This document shows positions 22,488 through 46,109 of a DNA stretch of 62,881 nt, piece after piece. Location of the stretch: NCBI GenBank assembly GCA_002946415.1, contig NJPS01000078.1:1-62881 (forward strand), written 5' to 3'. Below the pieces are notes generated by a model, which searched no databases, was not told the origin of the DNA, and saw nothing but the letters and a program-made list of their open reading frames with translations. Both the position numbers and the translations under genes were made by a program. Origin of the DNA: Rutstroemia sp. NJR-2017a BVV2. Its lineage: Eukaryota; Ascomycota; Leotiomycetes; Helotiales; Rutstroemiaceae. The number at the start of each line of letters is the position of its first letter. The first letter of the stretch is position 1.

Positions 22488-23510
22488 TGTATAAATGTTA
22501 TTTCTTATCTAGATCAGGTATAGGAAGATGGCATAGCGGTAGGCGTTCTGGATGGGAATGGGAGAGATGTTTTGAGCGGGCAAATTTTAATGAATCATCG
22601 GTGTTCCTGTCTCTTGTGTCTTGCTAAATGAGGGGGAAAATCAAATTTTTAAGCCTTCTTGAACTGTAATTGTCTCTTGGAAGTGTGAGAGCTTTGTTGC
22701 ATGTCTGCGATCACATGTTTGGTGACTTCTCGATTAATGTTTCTGATGGCAAGCTTCTTAGACGTGTTTCTTATGGGCCACACTCACTGGTGATTACTAC
22801 GTCGTCATTTATTTCTGTTGAAATTTTATATGCTCGTTGGATAGCATTGCATTCATAACGTGGAGTGACCGCTGCGAGTCTCCACGCGCATGCATCAATC
22901 TCCATGCTAACTTGTCTCTATCCAGTCTTACTTCGCGCCAAACTTCAACACCTATTGGGTGTCTACGATCACATGTTCTGAACTCTATCCTCATGATCTT
23001 CCATATTGTCGCTGAACGCCGTTGGGCTAGCCCGTTCCTTCCTTCTGACTGGACGCAAAGAACCCCCCTTACCACATCTTCCAATTCCCCGGGTTATCTT
23101 TAGAGATTGTTCTAGTACAGAAACACAAGATTTCATATGCATCTATGATGTCACCCATCTAAAGACAGTGTCCCAATCTCTAGGGTCTTTCTTCTCTCGC
23201 CGTCTGGAGCTAAACTGCAGAATAGGTAGTCGGTCAATTCGTATCTGATTCAGGGCCTCTAGTCTGTCAGTAGCGCAGTCTCAACCGGTGGTACTTGCCT
23301 CTAACAGAGCGCAGGATTTACAAATGAACTGAATGCTCGACACTTGGCCAAGCCGTTGCAGTGACGGTTTTGGGGAAGGAGGGAACAGCTCGATATTAGT
23401 ATGGTTCCAAAATGTCGCTATAATGTGTAGTCTGTATTACCGTTCAAATGTGCAAGATAGTCGGCGTCTGAATTTCAATCTGAACTGAACTAGTTCATCT
23501 CATGAGTTTC

Positions 23511-26958: not shown

Positions 26959-27979
26959 GTTGAACGTGTTGCTTTTGCCATGAGGAAAAATGGTCAGGCA
27001 CCACGTGGGGATCGGGTCATTTTTGGGCCAAATGGTAAAATTGGGGGTCAAAATAGTTTATTGGTGCACATCTAGAAATAAGTATAAATTCCTATTTCCA
27101 GCCTCAGCCGCGCAGCTACTAGCAGCTACATGCAAGGGGGCTTGTAGGTTAGCACGCGAATTTCACCAACAGAATGATTCATTCGGTGACATCGCACGAG
27201 AAGGATTTGACTATGAGACCGGAAGGTTACATTAACCGCCCGGGCTTAACGTCTACTCTCGCCGATGTATATGCAAGCGGCTTGACCAGCTATTCGGTAC
27301 CGATTATTGACCAATGGAATACTTCATTGGATGACATCGCACGGCCAGCATACAGGTTAAATTAAGCGCCCTTATTATTCATCTAGTGATACCAATCAAA
27401 CACGTGGAAAGTACCCAAGTAGAACATGGGCCACCGGGCGGCACAGCAAAACTGTACTTGAAAAGGTCGTTTCTATCCTCGAGCACCACTACTAAGCGGG
27501 GACGGGTGAAGTCCTTCATACACCCATCGCGCTTATTTGCGGGTGGTACTTGTTGGCTGACGAATTGAACGATTCATCTGGCGCTCTATTGCTGCAACAA
27601 ATGGCTATCATCTCACCAAGAACGCGCATCTTCAAACCCACAAAAGTAACATACCTAGAGCTTTTAAATATTCTAAGCCTATTGTGGTAGAGATTATATC
27701 ATTATAACTACCTAATTAGTAATATCAGGTACAAGAACATCATTAGTAAATATTTTCGCGGGAGAGTAGTCTTATTTCTCCACCTAATTATATACTGGCT
27801 TCTAATTGGCACATGGATGCGGTGATGCAGTTGGAAGGCCATACTCGTGTAACTAATAAGTCGTGACCTCTCAGAGACGGTGTGCAAGAAAGCATACTTT
27901 CATTTCCTCGTGAGTTTTCTCATCGAAAAGCACGTCTGCTTTAATCTACTTCAACTCAAGTCATACTCAATCTCTCATT
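26959..27979. other. Divergent intergenic region with a family-B MITE relic
   Basis: Lies between two divergent genes. It holds a short family-B element (27430-27512) and a direct repeat of GACATCGCACG followed by GGTTA.ATTAA..GCCC at about 27187-27240 and 27333-27372. No gene seen. Confidence 0.5.
27430..27512. mobile_element. MITE-like element, family B, short copy
   Basis: CAAAACTGTACTTGAAA followed by a GTTTCTAT..TCG word matches 7480-7515. The right end (27490-27512) reverse-complemented reads TTCACCCGTCCCCGCTTAGT, matching the 7450 terminus (GTCACCCGGCTCCGCTTAGT). The left terminus is degenerate (CCACCGGGCGGCAC). About 83 bp, so internally deleted relative to the 263-bp copy. Confidence 0.5.
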
Positions 27980-35514: not shown

Positions 35515-38064
35515 TCATCTAATCGTAATAACAAACCTCTCAGTCGGGTGAGTCACCTCCTGCACAACCTCCTTACATACTTTCCTCGCAGTCTCAGCAC
35601 CATACCGATCCAGTGCATCCAAAAAGATGTCCTGATGCGTTTTCAAACTCACAATCCAAAACGATCCCACTCTCTTAAACTCACCCGTCTCAGCATTCGT
35701 ACCCTGTAAAATAAGTCCCCTAATACAAGTACAGAAACTCTCATCTTCTCCATCCCCAACCTCAACTTCAACTCTCCCCGATATATCGGTCTTATAACTA
35801 AACAACGGGAGGAGGGCGACATCTACTTCGTCGTCTATATGAGAACTTAAAGCATAGTTGTACCCATAATATTCCTTCAGCACCCCTCGATCTGTCGATA
35901 GAATCCGCAGTCTGCGATTCGTCCCCGGCGAACTCGTATCTAACGTATGAAACCTCCCCAATAGCAAACCACGACAAACCACCGTAAGCACACCATCAAC
36001 CACCTCTCCAAACTCATCTACCCCTTTCGGCGTAACTCCACTCCGCGAATGATCCACCACCGCATAATAGCACGAATCATGCATCCTCCTAACATCCCAC
36101 CCAACATCCCTCACCTCCCCATCCACCGCCGCCCAACTCCAACTCGGCGCGCGATACGCACCCGGAGTTTGGAAATCCACACATCGCCACGGTAATTGCG
36201 TTTCTAGCCCATTTCTCCACAAACCGGCAAGATACCCACCCGTATGCTGATCCTGCAGCGGTCGCACAATCCCAGATATCGCGACGAGTTTGTCACTCGT
36301 GTGGGTGAGTTGTGCTTTGGTGTAGAGATTTATAATCTCATGCCAATTCGTCGTGGGGAACTTGCACTCGACTAGCTGCGGGGAGGTCTCTGTCGCGGTG
36401 CCGGTTTTGCATTCCCATGCCAGTCCGGTTCGGGTGAAGTGGATGCTGCGGGGAGCTAGTAAGCGTTCTTGTAAGGCCCATGCTCTTTTGGCTAGTGGGG
36501 TGTCGGATATTGATTCGGGCGGATTGGAGATGGTCCAGATTTCTTTGAATCCGCGTTGCGTGATTGTGATTTGGAATTTCGTGACAAAAGTGCTGGGAGT
36601 GAGAAAAAGGCCTTCGGTACCGTTGCGGGCTCCTGCTGCGGAGATGTTGATTACGGCGCCTCTGTAGACGGAGGCCATCTTACTCGACTCTGCGGTCCAA
36701 TCCTCTACCGAATCTTGGATGATGCAAAGTGAGTCGATCCACAAATAGGAGATGCCAAAGTGTTGGACGGTTGTTATAGCATCCTGGAAGGTTTTCGACA
36801 AAGTTCCTGCGCGGATGTTACGCAAGAAAGAATCTAAGTTATCTCTGGTAAGAGTCTGAAACTTATGGTCTCCCCAACAATGGCTCAGTGTGGCATATGG
36901 AGGCTGATGTGTCCATTCAGCCGTAAGGACGAGTTTGACTGATTTTTCACGGATCTCCAGCAACCTGCATGGAAGTGCGTGCAGGAGATTTGTCTGACAT
37001 AACTGGTGATGGTTTAAGCAATCAGTAACCCACCTCTTCGCAAGTTCGAATTTCATCATTGAGCGGTCGATATGGACCATCGATGACATCTCGGGGTCGA
37101 TGGATATATCTAGCATATGTCAGAATAATTCAAGCTTCAGACACTGGGACATGAAACTTGCCTTTATTATCAGTTCCAGTCATTGTTAGATTAGCTACTC
37201 CCATCTCACGGAAACCGTCTCGAGCGATGCAAGGTTGAGTTAGGAATAAAGTCAAATCACGACTGTGAGGCGATTCCGAGGACTCATATGCAGTAGATAT
37301 CATATCGCTGGAGCCTTTATTTCTGATCTCTACACTGAACGAGATATCTTTCCCCAGACATTTCAGTCGGTTTTCCAGTTTGAAAAAGTCCGCGATACTG
37401 AGCGAATACCATGGTCGCCTCGGATATTTATGCTGTTGTTCCCACATGGTACACAACTTGCATCCTCTGACTACCGAAGCGTAAAAGGCAGCTACATGCG
37501 GGAAATACGGTAGCGAGAGAGGACGGTGTCGTTGCTCTTGTCGGTCTTGTGAGGCGGGCTCAATAATAGCGATAGCAGCAGGTATGCCGTCTAGCAGGTT
37601 GCGGCAGTCTGTACAGCATTCCTCGACTAACTGTACAAGAGGTACCAGAGATTTTATTTCTTCGAGACAGTTCTCGACATCCAGGAGATCATCATCGAGG
37701 CTCCACTTACCTACTCCTGAGCTTCTGCCCCAACTTGAGTACCATTTATCAAGAGATATGTGTCCGGGGTTCCCGCAAGCGCAAGAATTAAAGTCTTGAT
37801 TGGTCACTTTGGCTCCATTTGGAATATGCCTTGACTTCCAAAGCACTGGCTTGCCTGAGTGTCCAGGTGAAACCTGCGTCACAAGATTGGTTACCAGATG
37901 TTTAGCAAACAGATTCAGACTTTTTTCTATACCTTGGCTCCCAGCGCCTGATCTTGGTAGTTATCACTCTTTTCGTAAGCAGCCCACCAAGCTTTAAGGC
38001 TTTCGATATCAAGTGAGTGGTAGTTCGGAGTTGGATCGTCCTCTTTCTCTTCCTTATCTGGCAT
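35515..38064 (-). CDS. HET-domain protein, three exons with one GC-AG intron
   Basis: Join complement(35515..37109, 37162..37873, 37933..38064), 812 aa. Exon 1 starts MPDKEEKEDDPTPNY. Intron 1 (59 nt, GTATAG..GCTAAAC..GCAG) joins GAK to VSPGHSG. Intron 2 (52 nt, 37110-37161) starts G|GCAAGT and ends TCTGACATATGCTAG, so it is a GC-AG intron; it joins GTDNK to DISIDPEM. The N-terminal third has CTDCRNLLDGIP and GCKLC cysteine pairs. The HET core begins near residue 350: YATLSHCWG, LSKTFQDAITTVQHFGISYLWIDSLCIIQ, EDWTAESSKMASVYRGAVINISA. It is followed by RAWALQERLLAPRSIHF and AYRAPSWSWAAVDG. The predicted role is cell-death triggering in vegetative incompatibility or a related immune-like response; the partner is unknown. 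Confidence 0.88.
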
Positions 38065-40150: not shown

Positions 40151-41321
40151 TTACGACATGCAACAAAGTCTCAGCATCCTGATTCCCGTGCTCGGGTTCG
40201 CCGAGCTAGAGATTAAATTTATAGTACCTGACATGCGATCGATTGGTTTGCGACGATGATGATGTAAGTGTTGGAAATTCTAGGACTTTGCTTATTCGGA
40301 GTTAGGATGAGTTTATAGTAGTGATGCTGGTCTATATTATACAGTAATCAAAGTCAGGGCTGATATGATATGATATGATACGACATGACAGAGCCTAGGC
40401 ATAACATAAGGCTGAGATGAAACGAAACGAACCGCAGCGTCAGTCACGGACGGGAACATCCATCCGGGCCAAACATCCAGAGTAATATGACAGTGATATG
40501 ATGTGACAAGTTTGCTGCGTACAGTCAGTCCGTCGCATAATTGATAGATACTATACCTACCTACCCAGTATTTACTTCGGAGAATAAATACGACATGCAA
40601 CAAAGTCTTCCCATATGATAAGTTTTAAGCATAAACATCAGCAAGGACGTTCGTCCGTCCATTCTTGTATGTAATCCGTCCGATCATGGTTGATGCCATC
40701 CATCCATCCTGTTTTCAAAAAGTGTGGGGTGACGCGAAGTGGGGCGCGCATCGCATAGCATAGCATAAATCCTTCCGGTCGAAAAAGCCCACCAAAGTGA
40801 ACCCCTCGCGTCTCAGGTTAAGTCACGACATGCAACAAAAAAGTTCAGATGTGGATTTGGTGGCTGGGAGCAGTAGAAGGTACAGTCTGGACTCCGCGCA
40901 GTCGGTGAATTGATGGGTGGGGTGGGGCGGGGATGGGATGAGAGTTTCATCTGATATCCACGTCCAGGACGTTGAAACCAACGTTGGGACGACTCGGAGA
41001 ATTAGACATGCAACAAAAACGTCAAATACCCTGGGAAGAGTGGAGTACTGTCGTCTGAAGAAACTTGGAGGCAGGGACAAGACGGGTAAAGCATTAAGCT
41101 TCAATTGCAGGATCGTCTTTGGCAAGGCAGAGATTGAACCACATCGCCCCACGTGTATCCATCCACGCCAAGCTATATGTTTCCGGTGTATTGTGTATAT
41201 GACTTCATATACCAGGTGGCAGATAAAGTAACTCCGCCATCTAGATCATACGAATATGGATGAGTCTAGCTTCGGAGAATAAATCAGACTTGCAACAAAA
41301 CGTCGAAACCTTGAACTTATT

Positions 41322-41414
41322 TTATGGATAGGCGGACTCGATATCTGGTCCGAGATCTGGTCTTACCTCTGAAAGGGAGATTCGACCGAGCAGGCGGGGG
41401 AGCTCCTCGACCAT
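41322..41414 (-). CDS. Micro-ORF 1 of the box array, 30 aa
   Basis: ATG 23 nt after the box at 41437, context AACAATGG. The peptide begins MVEELPRLLGRISLSE and continues VRPDLGPDIESAYP to TAA. It has exactly the length of the neighbour at 41461-41553. No other support; could be a by-product of tandem duplication. Confidence 0.3.
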   Translation of the reverse strand: MVEELPRLLGRISLSEVRPDLGPDIESAYP

Positions 41415-41460
41415 TGTTTGAAGTATAAATCAGACTTGCAACAAAACCTCGAAACCTGGT

Positions 41461-41553
41461 TTATGTATAGGTGGATTTGACATCTTGTCCAAGGTCTGGT
41501 CTTACCTCAGAGAGGAAGATATGACCGAACAGGAGGGGCAGCTCCTCGACCAT
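41461..41553 (-). CDS. Micro-ORF 2 of the box array, 30 aa
   Basis: ATG 23 nt after the box at 41576, context AACAATGG. The peptide begins MVEELPLLFGHIFLSE and continues VRPDLGQDVKSTYT to TAA. Compared with micro-ORF 1 there are no indels; five codons differ silently and about nine change the residue. Confidence 0.3.
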   Translation of the reverse strand: MVEELPLLFGHIFLSEVRPDLGQDVKSTYT

Positions 41554-41606
41554 TGTTTGAAGTATAAATCAGACCTGCAACAAACCGTCGAGACCTTGAA
41601 CATATT

Positions 41607-41681
41607 TTATGAACAGGTGAGATCTGGCCTCACCGCTAAGATAGAGACCTGACCGAACAAGCGGGGGAGCTCTTCGACCAT
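41607..41681 (-). CDS. Micro-ORF 3 of the box array, 24 aa
   Basis: ATG 24 nt after the box at 41705, context AACAATGG. The peptide begins MVEELPRLFGQVSILA and ends VRPDLTCS. It shares the first two thirds with micro-ORFs 1 and 2, then a deletion brings the stop forward. Confidence 0.3.
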   Translation of the reverse strand: MVEELPRLFGQVSILAVRPDLTCS

Positions 41682-41717
41682 TGTTTGAGGTATAAATCGC
41701 GACTTGCAACAAATTCT

Positions 41718-41807
41718 TTATGACCCTAGTGTCACCATGGGACACATCTTGCTCGCTCCGACATAAATGAAATCGCTGACAGAATGGGAAGTAACTCCTT
41801 CCACCAT
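41718..41807 (-). CDS. Micro-ORF 4 of the box array, 29 aa
   Basis: ATG 24 nt after the box at 41831, context GACGATGG. The peptide begins MVEGVTSHSVSDFIYV and ends in CPMVTLGS. Only the first three residues, the position and the length match the other three, so homology is weak at peptide level although the box and TTTATA-type leader are shared. Confidence 0.25.
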   Translation of the reverse strand: MVEGVTSHSVSDFIYVGASKMCPMVTLGS

Positions 41808-42080
41808 CGTCGCAGATATAAACCACGATTTGCAACAAACGTCTCCAACATAAGAAGTGCTAGCCAAGATTGACGATAGCTTGTAGCAGGTTAAGAAAAG
41901 ATATGCAACAAAACAGAAGGAAAGTGAATACCTACAGCACCTAGATCCAGGACCCCAGGACCAGTTCGTCTCACATAGAAATTGCGATATGCAACAAAGG
42001 TGTTGGAAATGATCTTGCAGTTTCCCCAACGACCATTCCATTCAGCGCAAAGGAAGAATGTCTTTATAAACGTCTTCACT

Positions 42081-45000
42081 CTACCAAACACTTCCGTCTC
42101 CCCACATACTTCCATTCATACTCTCATCTCCATTTCGCAGGCCATTCATCACCATCTCATCGAAGCTAGCCTCCATCCCCTCTAGTTCTCTCATGAAGAA
42201 ATCGTGTTCTTCTTCCAATAGCTTGGTGTCAGCGCCCATACTTTCGGGATATCGTCGCACATTGAACCAATGAGTTAATGCCCTCAACGCTTGCTCCAAA
42301 GGCAGTGCTTCCTCAACTTCCGAATCCACATCGCCACCTGCTAGCCAATCATCTCTCAGCTCAGGTCTACAATGTAGATAAACAGCGGTAATGACCCTCA
42401 TATTCCCTTGCCTCCATTTCCGTCCACAATAAGGAACTTGATTTTTGAATAATTTAAGTGTATATAGCCGAAGTTCGGGTTGGGGTACTTTCAAAGATTT
42501 CTTGAAAATATTCGAGGACTTGTATTGTACAAGTAGTAGATTCCGATGAGCTTTGTTTTTACAGATTTTCTGCATGATTCGTAGGAAGTTGATGGAGGAG
42601 AAAAAGTTTCGCCAAGAATATTCTGTTTCGGGAGCCGGGCTAGTTTCAGTGGTTGGATTCCCAAGTTCGTCAACTTCAGGTACGTCTCGACGTGCTGCAT
42701 GTTGACCTTCTTGAAATGCTAGTGCTGGAAGCTGGTCATTAGAAGTAGCTGCCTTAGTCTCACGCTGCATCTTAATTGGAGGTGGGGCAGCATCATCTTC
42801 GCTTTCTGGTTCGGGAGGTGACGGCACGTTTTTGCTGTTGGCATTGCAGAAGGCGAAGAAACTATCAAATTTAGTACAGGAATCAGGATGGGTTTATTGT
42901 TCTTTACCTTAGTTCTTCCCGATCTGTTCTGCTGACGACCACCCTATCTATTTCTTGATGTGCGAACATCTTTAAGATCAAAGGAATATAATTCGAATCT
43001 AGTAGCAACTGAGTGAAATACTCAAATTTTAAAACATCTGTATGATCAGCATATCTTCGAGCAGGAAGATGGACACGTCTTACGTGAAACTTTGAACCAT
43101 TTCAAAAGGATAAGAAGTATGCCAGTGACGGCTTTCGACGTGATTTCCCGAAATCGCATTGCCTCAATCTCATCCACGGAGAGATCAGCAAGATCGATAG
43201 GATTCGGAAGAGGGACATTCGCTGGGTCCGCCTGCCGATTCTGTCCTGGAGCTCCATTCGTTCTGGGACCGATAGGAATGCCACTTTGTGGTTGTACATT
43301 TACTGATTGAGTTAAAATAGCTGTCACATTTGCTAGAACGGCCTTGAGCAGGACAATCACAAGGGATTGGAGATGTGGAAGTGAATGTTGCTGCGGGCTG
43401 TTAGAGAAGAAAGTAGCACTAAGAGCAGAAAACTTACATAGAATGACTCTATCATGTTTAGCTTTTCTTTGACTTCCGCACTGATGTCTCCACGTGGTCC
43501 ATAGTCAACATCAAGTGCCGGCCGTTTCTTCTTTTCGAATTTCAGCCCATCAGCCAGAATATGATCTAGATCCAATTCCTCGATATCCTCGTCGTCCGGG
43601 TCATCCCAACCTCGCTCGAACTTCAAGAAACGTTCTCGCTCGTCCCATAATTGTCGCATCGCTCTAGTCATCCTCATTCTGCCAGCAAACAACTCACCAG
43701 CCTCTAGAATCGACTTCGGTATATCGCTTCCCTCCCATTTTCGTCCAACAAGTAAGTCTTGTAATCCTGCGGTGCCTTTCCCACCTGCACTATTACTGGT
43801 GCTATCAAGAGGTGGGTACATGAAGGGGAAGTTCTGATTCGTCTGGTAGTTTTGCTTTTTGCCGGCTTTTCCACCTACAGGTGGGGATGGAGGTGGAGAA
43901 GGGGCAGGCGTCGCTATATGAACAGGCTGATGAAGAATAGACGCCCCACCACTGTTCGCGTTGGGTGGATTCAATATTCCAGACGTACTGGCTCTACTCG
44001 GACGGTTTGGAAGAGGCGGTAGTATTGAATTGTTATCTGGTTCCAGAGGTATCAAAGGTTCGGGTGGGATGTATGCGGGGTACTTCGACGTAATTTCTTG
44101 ACGGAAGATATGGTAGTCCAAAGGAGACGCGGTGATGATCTTTTCGCCAGCCGAATTGGCCAACTCATCGGTTGCTCTTTTAACATTGTCGATTTCATTG
44201 GTACCGCCAAATACCAGCAATATGGCTTTCCAGAAAAGAAGAAAGATCTGTGAATATGGGTGTGAGCAAAGTGGTCGTACAATACTTGGAATACTGACTC
44301 GTGTCTGAGGTAGTTCATTGGCCTCGTCCCATCGTAATTTTCCAGTAATGGTCAACAAAAACTCCACGAGGCTTGGTTCCAGCTTGGCTAGAAAAGGTCA
44401 GTGATCAAATATGGCTTTATATAGCTTGACTGACTTACAGAGTTTCTCTCGAGCATTCTGCATATCGTCTTTGTGGAATCGAATACCCTCTATAATTAAA
44501 TAGAAGATTGTCATCACGTTATCGAGTTCATCTTGTACAAATGGCACATCCTCTTCCGTCAATTTTGTTTCCCTCACGTCGTCATCCCTGCAAGTTCATT
44601 AGTATTGCCGTATTCGATTATTCTTGTATTTTCCTCACCATAAATACTTAAAAGCATTCTGCGTAACATCATATACCACCTCAATTCCTCCGCTCTCCGC
44701 AAGTAGTAACAAGTTCTCCTTCATGTGTTCAATTTGCGAGGGCGTCGCTTTCGTTTTATTTTTCGGTTTTTTCGACGAAGTTGCATCGAGCTCCTCCTTC
44801 TTTCCAGCAGTCTCATCCCATATCCCAAGCACAACGTGAAGTATTGTCTGTAGGCTTTTGCATCTCCGTCGCAAATCCGCCGCATGCATCCCTTCGATTT
44901 CCTTCTTTAAAAAGTTGAGTCGCTGTTCTCGACCTGCTTCCAGCCAGGATTTCTCCGATGACTTCTTCCATCGTCGTCTAAATGTGTCCTTTGCTCTGTT

Positions 45001-45393
45001 CAGCCTTTTGAATTCCGCTTCATTGTATGAAAACCACTCATCGATTTCCTCCTCGAACGAAGCAGTATCAGCATAGACAAAGGTATATGAGGTAGGATCA
45101 ATCTTTGGAAACTCGGTGACAAGCTTCTTCAGCTGCACCAACGAGAGAGAGTCCGTCGGATTTCCGAGCATTTGCTGTTGCTGCTGCTGTGGGGCAGGAG
45201 GTGGTGGGGGTTGATGCGGCGGAGGGGGTTGAGGCTGGTGTCGCTGTAATTGTGGACGTGCCATAGGAACACTTGTCGGAGGATCTGGGGCAGGAGAAGG
45301 AAGCCCTACATCTGCCAGCCCGGTATCTGCGACATCAGCTGTATCCTTTGGAGTGGCATCGCCAGTGGAAGATTTGGTCCATAAAGAAGACAT
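42081..45393 (-). CDS. ham-2: STRIPAK complex subunit, FAR11/HAM-2 (STRIP1/2) family
   Basis: Seven exons: complement(42081..42861, 42908..43037, 43084..43390, 43438..44247, 44299..44387, 44439..44587, 44639..45393), 1006 aa. All six introns are 46-51 nt and each junction restores family sequence, for example KYLWDDDVRE, LPQTRIFLLFWK, ESFYQHSLPHLQSLVIVLL, KWFKVSHVLKFEYFTQLLLDSNYIPLI and REELSFFAFCN. The N-terminus is Pro/Gln-rich (poly-Q run), then the N1221 region (LVQLKKLVTEFPKIDP to about exon 4), a Pro-rich linker and the C-terminal DUF3402 region. Homologues (yeast Far11, Neurospora HAM-2, Sordaria PRO22) are scaffold subunits of the striatin-PP2A complex, acting at the nuclear envelope/ER in hyphal fusion and fruiting-body development. 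The 3' flank carries the box array. Confidence 0.93.
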
Positions 45394-46010
45394 TGTTTAG
45401 GATTTCGGCAGTGTAGTCGGGAGTAGAGAAGGGAGGATGTGGCAGATAGATCATTAGTCAAGTAATACTCTCATGATTCGTAGAATTCGTAGACTTCATC
45501 ATACATCAAATGTGCGACAAGGAGGCGTTCGCAGTTCGCAGTATTATGTATCGCATATTTATTGTTGATGTTGGTACAAAGGCAAATTGTATGGCGGTTT
45601 GCGATCTACGCGCGTTGGGAGCGGAGGAGCTGTCTCGCTTATGATAAGGTCGATAAGAGAATTTGGTGGTGCAGTTGCTCATTATTAGTTTCAAGGGTGA
45701 GAATAGATACGCTTTCGATGGGTTGTATGTCACTTATGCTACCAAAACTTTTCGGTTGGGATCTCTTCATAACCAATGGCTGATTTCCTCCTGATATTGG
45801 TCTGACGAGAAAAAGAATACAGACTCAACCCCGCTAGATCGGCCACCGGCCACGTGTGCTACACGCGCCACACAACCATTCCACGGATAGCAGCAGACCC
45901 ATTTGGAACCCGATGCAACCCCTCGCTGAAAGTAAGAAAAATGCATAACGTAGGACCCGAGGGAAGAACAAAAAATGCCAAAAGCTCAACCCGGAACAGG
46001 CAAAAGTTGA
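45394..46010. promoter_or_regulatory. Promoter side of ham-2
   Basis: Upstream region of the ham-2 ATG, bounded on the other side by the tRNA-Glu gene. No specific site recognised. Confidence 0.4.
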
Positions 46011-46109
46011 TTCCGGTACGGGGAATTGAACCCCGGTCTCCCGCGACCGTTGCTAACTGAGAGTTGAGCGAATGAGAGGCGGAAATGCTAGCCACTACAC
46101 CATGCCGGA
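46011..46109 (-). tRNA. tRNA-Glu(CTC) with a 27-nt intron
   Basis: The minus strand folds to a cloverleaf: acceptor TCCGGCA/TACCGGA, D stem GTGT/GCAT, anticodon stem TCCGC/GCGGG around loop CTCTCAC (anticodon CTC), T arm with GGTTCAATTCC. The intron (46046-46072) follows position 37, the canonical place, giving a 72-nt mature tRNA. One acceptor position is a C-A mismatch (position 6; usual fungal sequence TCCGGTA). Confidence 0.9.

Follow-up and report, generated by a model that had tools for sequence, protein, structure and literature searches.

We lean towards reading the array of eleven boxes at 40155-41998 of the window (the whole stretch of 62,881 nucleotides analysed here, from the Helotiales fungus Rutstroemia sp. 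NJR-2017a BVV2) as a homotypic cluster of sites at which a single putative DNA-binding protein of Helotiales, with high sequence specificity, would recognise double-stranded DNA, combined with a locus-specific partner sequence. The putative protein would read a strict 3' box, [A/C]GA[C/T]NTGCAACAAA, with an A/T-rich lead-in; the 5' prefix of about 15-30 bp, which is alike within a cluster and different between clusters, suggests a second, locus-specific contact or a partner factor, and a group of these composite sites within a single intergenic region could form a regulatory or chromatin-organising element. A sequence that is long, asymmetric, strict, noncoding, present in both orientations, clustered and intact amid change is best explained as the recognition site of a very specific protein, and it is from these features that we infer protein binding, the role of the prefix as a second contact and a regulatory or architectural output.

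An earlier note on this DNA had singled out an exact nine-base word, in a single orientation, as too frequent to be chance. Both points hold: TTTGTTGCA is the most frequent 9-mer of the window, with 13 copies compared with a mean of 0.82 in shuffled sequence (largest count 5; none of 100 shuffles reached 13), and the 11 copies with TGCAACAAA all lie on the plus strand, at 40159-41998. This nine-base word forms the core of a longer, 13-base box. The first three boxes lie at 40155-40167, 40592-40604 and 40827-40839, and these three and box 4 (41005-41017) read GACATGCAACAAA; boxes 5 (41287-41299), 6 (41433-41445) and 8 (41701-41713) read GACTTGCAACAAA, box 7 (41572-41584) reads GACCTGCAACAAA, box 9 (41827-41839) reads GATTTGCAACAAA, and boxes 10 (41900-41912) and 11 (41986-41998) read GATATGCAACAAA, all on the plus strand. 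A prefix search found CGGAGAATAAAT at 40578 ahead of box 2; the same prefix stands at 41273 ahead of box 5, CGGAGAAT precedes box 4 at a distance 4 bases shorter than in boxes 2 and 5, GTATAAATC precedes boxes 6, 7 and 8, and ATATAAACC precedes box 9.

Box 5 opens a degenerate tandem block of five units on the plus strand (41250-41865, limits set by hand), in which the boxes start at 41287, 41433, 41572, 41701 and 41827; the steps of 146, 139, 129 and 126 bp agree with the spacing reported before, and TRF finds a tandem repeat with a period of 139 bp at 41279-41596. Conservation of the boxes above the spacers, which had been proposed as a check, is borne out, as the 11 fixed bases agree throughout the 10 possible pairings of the five units while the aligned spacers are 37-81% identical. 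The flanking GAC described earlier is present in part: all 11 boxes include GA[C/T], but as GAC in 8 and GAT in 3. Similarly, GTC follows within a few bases at 6 of the 11 window boxes, by eye, but is not a general feature, no base immediately after the box exceeding 39% over 94 sites. The extra copy noted near 27593 exists but lacks the GAY part, and it is probably a chance occurrence; a solitary full box, GACATGCAACAAA, at 22693-22705 on the minus strand, outside predicted coding sequence (CDS), had been overlooked.

The array lies 3' of ham-2, as had been stated: exons of this STRIPAK Far11/STRIP family gene, identified by Pfam N1221 and DUF3402, occupy 42081-45396 on the minus strand with their 3' end facing the array, so that the boxes are antisense to ham-2. 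On the other side, a HET-domain gene identified by a domain match (35515-37119, minus strand, start approximate) turns its 5' side towards the array over 2-3 kb. The closest protein with an organism name is from Monilinia for HAM-2 (80%) and from Mollisiaceae and Acephala for phosphatidylserine decarboxylase (69-70%). By these proteins the host is a Leotiomycete, probably of the Helotiales, and Neurospora was rejected as a candidate. Rfam also reports a tRNA at 46011-46109 of the window (43.9 bits, 99 bp, minus strand, perhaps with an intron), which is absent from the ARAGORN output obtained with a bacterial setting.

Across the 43.4-Mb assembly, GAYNTGCAACAAA has 313 matches compared with 4 for the reversed pattern (60 GACA, 108 GATA and 145 GAY[CGT] forms, with reversed controls of 0, 0 and 4), where 313 is an upper figure because the assembly seems partly duplicated. 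Contig C74 shows the same site positions as C25 and, in reverse order, as C50, and the assembly seems to hold a duplicated region. Over 94 sites with GA from 60 loci, A or C stands immediately ahead of GA in 98%, T is the favoured base two positions upstream of that (54%), and an A/T-rich stretch precedes.

The strictness of the box was examined in 46 regions of 210,659 bases in all, 45 of them merged from 66 loci (L008-L073) and one being the window. These contain 104 exact MGAYNTGCAACAAA (MGAYN) sites compared with 31 one-mismatch forms, the reversed forms totalling 2; the regions were picked for exact sites, which favours exact forms, while additional sites within them are unselected. Of the 31 one-mismatch forms, 19 deviate at one of the two final bases and 12 at other positions. 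When up to one mismatch is allowed, MGAYATGCAACAAA has 451 matches in the whole genome compared with 47 for the control, and subtracting the exact and N-position forms leaves roughly 150 near-misses, as estimated from the matches listed. With about 150 near-misses genome-wide, and 12 compared with 104 exact sites in the regions, near-miss boxes are rare, not absent.

No flanks are shared between loci, the surroundings being unrelated; no partner motif other than the box itself stands beside all boxes, although there is some excess of CACGTG, and the prefixes carry no general CGG (Zn2Cys6-type) signal. Among open-licence papers, searches with box strings and topics returned nothing relevant, which is weak evidence of absence; a 13-mer of the box occurs in two papers, one on planarians and one on a melanoma lncRNA, which we judged by title to be unrelated.

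The box also occurs in a second fungus. When bacterial and archaeal genomes were scanned for paired boxes, 11 records turned up, eight of which are repeats by eye. Among the viral and bacterial paired-box matches, L074-L079, L081-L084, L086 and L087 are repeats by eye, L080 has its box pair inside an ORF of 489 aa, and L097 has repeats in an ORF. Two of the 11 records, L085 (NYXK01000181.1) and L088 (NYXK01000053.1), carry fungal sequence in a metagenome-assembled genome (MAG) labelled Deltaproteobacteria CPC1; this misbinned MAG is filed as the genome of a prokaryote species. L085 shows a HET-like match with the window and carries six boxes on the same strand plus three GAAA variants. L088 encodes a Sec22 that is 93-99% identical to those of Cadophora, Rhexocercosporidium and Leptodontidium and 88% identical over 130 residues to the Sec22 of our own genome, near whose locus no box of the GATA or GACA form lies. 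The whole 7.3-Mb CPC1 record, including any bacterial part, has 28 box matches compared with 3 for the control, and both the flank rule (A or C directly before GA, T two bases further up) and the array form are the same as in the first fungus. From the 28 matches compared with 3, the same flank rule and the divergence of Sec22, we conclude that the box is common to two fairly distant Helotiales.

The sites are noncoding and clustered. None of 106 overlaps a CDS predicted by a simple gene finder trained on these sequences, by which CDS makes up 19.5% of the 45 regions, and none of 104 lies inside coding sequence by a cruder coding measure. Grouped at 3 kb, the 205 sites in the complete lists for contigs C2-C41 fall into 109 groups, 73 with a single site and 36 with 2-8 sites. 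The 15 contigs whose length is known (16.8 Mb) carry 156 sites, among which 78 neighbouring pairs are separated by no more than 3 kb; 500 random trials gave 4.3 such pairs on average and never more than 13. Many above-chance copies in noncoding DNA are what a homotypic cluster would lead one to look for. Orientation is shared by 72 of 96 adjacent pairs and is mixed inside many clusters.

The sites face 3' ends of genes more often than 5' ends. With one site counted per region and ends taken within 1.5 kb, 3' ends account for 32 of the facing gene ends and 5' ends for 13 (P 0.003 when tested against one half), a tally in which 14 of the 45 regions have no gene end and for which the control, positions in the window and hence one contig only, gives 630 to 707. 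The 14 regions with ends on both sides comprise 6 convergent, 8 tandem and 0 divergent arrangements. When the nearest site is compared by eye with the strand of the gene whose 3' end it faces, 14 of 28 regions have the same orientation and 14 the opposite. The neighbouring genes, judged from their translations without a domain scan, look diverse, with no regulon evident.

The second element of our reading is the prefix. Its likeness within clusters was scored in 118 sites from 49 groups (23 with at least 2 sites), using a shift-tolerant local score and 1000 shuffles of the group labels. The stretch from -32 to -3 before GA is alike within clusters with z 16.0 over all 209 pairs, 9.8 without the window and 7.8 without the window and L085. 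For the same three sets, the comparison stretches give z 3.0, 1.5 and 1.1 at -60 to -33, 2.2, 0.7 and 1.0 at +1 to +30, and 3.5, 2.9 and 1.4, hence not zero, at +31 to +60. Finer windows place the signal at -1 to -34, and the likeness persists between sites on opposite strands (z 5.0). Ungapped identity in a fixed register is weak and owes most of its signal to the window and L085; without both, individual positions ahead of the box reach only z of about 2, so that variable spacing must be allowed.

The prefix sequence differs from cluster to cluster. CGGAGAA, the word of the window prefix, has 4 copies compared with 0.4 expected, CTCCGG at C5:15-19k has 13 compared with 1.5, CAGGGAAAT at C15:902-905k has 4 compared with 0.1, and GCARGGG in L085 has 6 compared with 1.3; CTGAAG, chosen by eye at C41:136k, shows no enrichment at that place (4 compared with 2.7). 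With up to 3 mismatches, the window prefix together with the box is confined to the window (4 of 4 matches). Sharing of 7-mers is nominal (P 0.02-0.04) in three of 15 clusters besides the window, whose own value gives no fair P because the random sets reached nine sites only and its cluster has 11.

Copying of a composite unit would leave a different trace from selection. A copied unit of 45 bp would make all variable positions alike. Within clusters there is no significant concordance at Y (P 0.15), at N, which falls below expectation, or at the second and third bases ahead of GA; the base that adjoins GA shows a weak concordance (P 0.08 with the window and 0.04 when it is left out), as copying would give. 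That the variable positions of the box are mostly not concordant argues against simple copying, and we favour the view that the locus-specific prefix is kept by selection, as the pattern in about 20 clusters suggests.

Some of these observations count against our reading. The preference for 3' ends is unlike the sites of common activators, the mostly coherent orientation would fit an RNA element as well, and the presence of near-misses, the lack of an evident regulon and the weak concordance before GA weigh on the same side. More tentatively still, and as a proposal that we consider rather unlikely, Helotiales may use two-part addressing, in which a universal strict box of 13 bases is joined to a 5' locus address of 15-30 bp, alike within a locus and seemingly not simply copied. 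Together they could label dozens of intergenic loci with several sites each, with a preference for the space between gene 3' ends; such loci would serve either as directional chromatin anchors or as locus-specific short-RNA units.

An RNA-level element is the alternative that retains most, although we regard it as unlikely. Each cluster would then be a noncoding transcript, the box, on either strand, a processing or protein-binding site, and the adjoining 30 nt or so the RNA that is made or kept; the processing sites suggested in the earlier note are a possible reading of the boxes. Viewed from the opposite strand, the order is a constant box and then a short unique sequence, which is the layout of motif-driven small-RNA genes. 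The noncoding location, the coherent orientation within clusters and the placing of the locus-specific sequence directly beside the constant box, whose other side is sharply bounded, are all consistent with an RNA-level element. However, many clusters are of mixed orientation, the prefix is alike even between opposite-strand sites, and orientation to the nearest facing gene is evenly split. Moreover, folding of prefix plus box shows a weak excess (mean z -0.33, s.e.m. 0.1), and no Rfam family was found at the window array, nor at the sites in 20 loci apart from a tRNA at L033. Elements of tRNA, 5S or other known RNA genes were considered separately and rejected, as this same tRNA is the only one in 56 loci scanned with a bacterial setting and the only Rfam match in the 20 loci, and none lies at the window array.

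By analogy with directional CTCF sites, the box could instead mark boundaries, loop anchors, replication origins or recombination hotspots and not promoters, an architectural role that we consider quite improbable. The preference for gene 3' ends, the absence of divergent arrangements among the two-sided regions, the coherent orientation and the diversity of the neighbouring genes would all suit such a role, but the 3' preference derives from a simple gene finder, many regions contribute no gene end, and its control covers a single contig.

That the box just happens to be the core that is conserved in a satellite or mobile-element remnant is very improbable. The idea of a decaying satellite in the earlier note is right as to local tandem duplication, which is evident in the 139-bp block of the window, but elsewhere the surroundings are unrelated and near-misses outside the last two bases are few. 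Head-to-tail units alike over their full length were seen at 41279-41596 and, by spacing, at C2:816.6-816.9k; the other clusters are alike in prefix and box only. Nor does the array have a DNA-level relative in the genome, in a search that passes over very common words, and its boxes stay intact though the spacers diverge. A homologous body at several loci, as a transposon would leave, was not found, with one possible exception in L026 and L027. At C2:816574-816923, five GATGTGCAACAAA sites lie 84-85 bp apart, apparently in a minisatellite that contains the box, judged by spacing only. L026 (C5:152595-152657) and L027 (C5:281502-281568) are two inverted box pairs, 50-54 bp apart, that enclose CACGTG, are adjoined by CCTATAGG palindromes (on both sides in L026 and on one side in L027) and lie at most 100 bp from the 3' end of a predicted gene; together they look like one small palindromic element.

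Finally, although a distance of 83 bp separates the last box from where the final ham-2 ORF ends (42081), the extended ham-2 3' UTR that had been offered as an explanation can practically be set aside, since the same box stands at nearly 300 other places, in predicted CDS at none of the 106 examined, is antisense to ham-2 here and keeps no fixed orientation to its host gene elsewhere.

The recognition-site reading thus concerns a strict, noncoding sequence of 13 bases that stands at nearly 300 places in this genome and is present in two rather distant Helotiales, which implies a dedicated, putative selective reader. Because the box is short and exact, a single oligonucleotide would suffice to fish for this reader. 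Should the locus-specific prefix prove real, it raises a new question, namely how one factor ties to a different address at each locus. The preference for 3' ends would give access to fungal boundary or loop elements.

Four known systems resemble the sites in part. One is the CENP-B box, YTTCGTTGGAARCGGGA, in which TTCG, A and CGGG are essential, together with pogo-type HTH proteins. Part of the CENP-B box is matched by the reverse strand, TTTGTTGCANRTCK, of the present box, and the genome has 11 HTH_Tnp_Tc5 matches, but the present box lacks the essential CGGG half and has TTTG for TTCG, so that the resemblance is a lead only. The upstream (Ruby) motif of C. elegans 21U-RNAs is likewise constant, adjoins short unique sequences and occurs in intergenic clusters; its sequence is different, the spacing in C. 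elegans and that of the fungal boxes differ, the latter being the closer, and the boxes belong to a fungus and are known here from DNA alone. CTCF sites combine a core with an upstream motif in directional clusters. They share with the present sites a long asymmetric core, additional sequence on one side and an intergenic position in clusters of mostly the same orientation, which 72 of 96 adjacent pairs bear out here; the sequences are unrelated, the upstream part of the present sites is locus-specific, our comparison is drawn from sequence, and we know of no fungal CTCF. Homotypic clusters of transcription-factor sites, such as those of the Mcm1 type, pair a universal box with different partner sites. 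The present box differs from them in being strict over 11 fixed bases, in its preference for the 3' sides of genes and in having a partner sequence specific to each locus, but it resembles them in what would be repeated sites of one, here putative, factor in intergenic DNA, with partner sequences adjoining the box.
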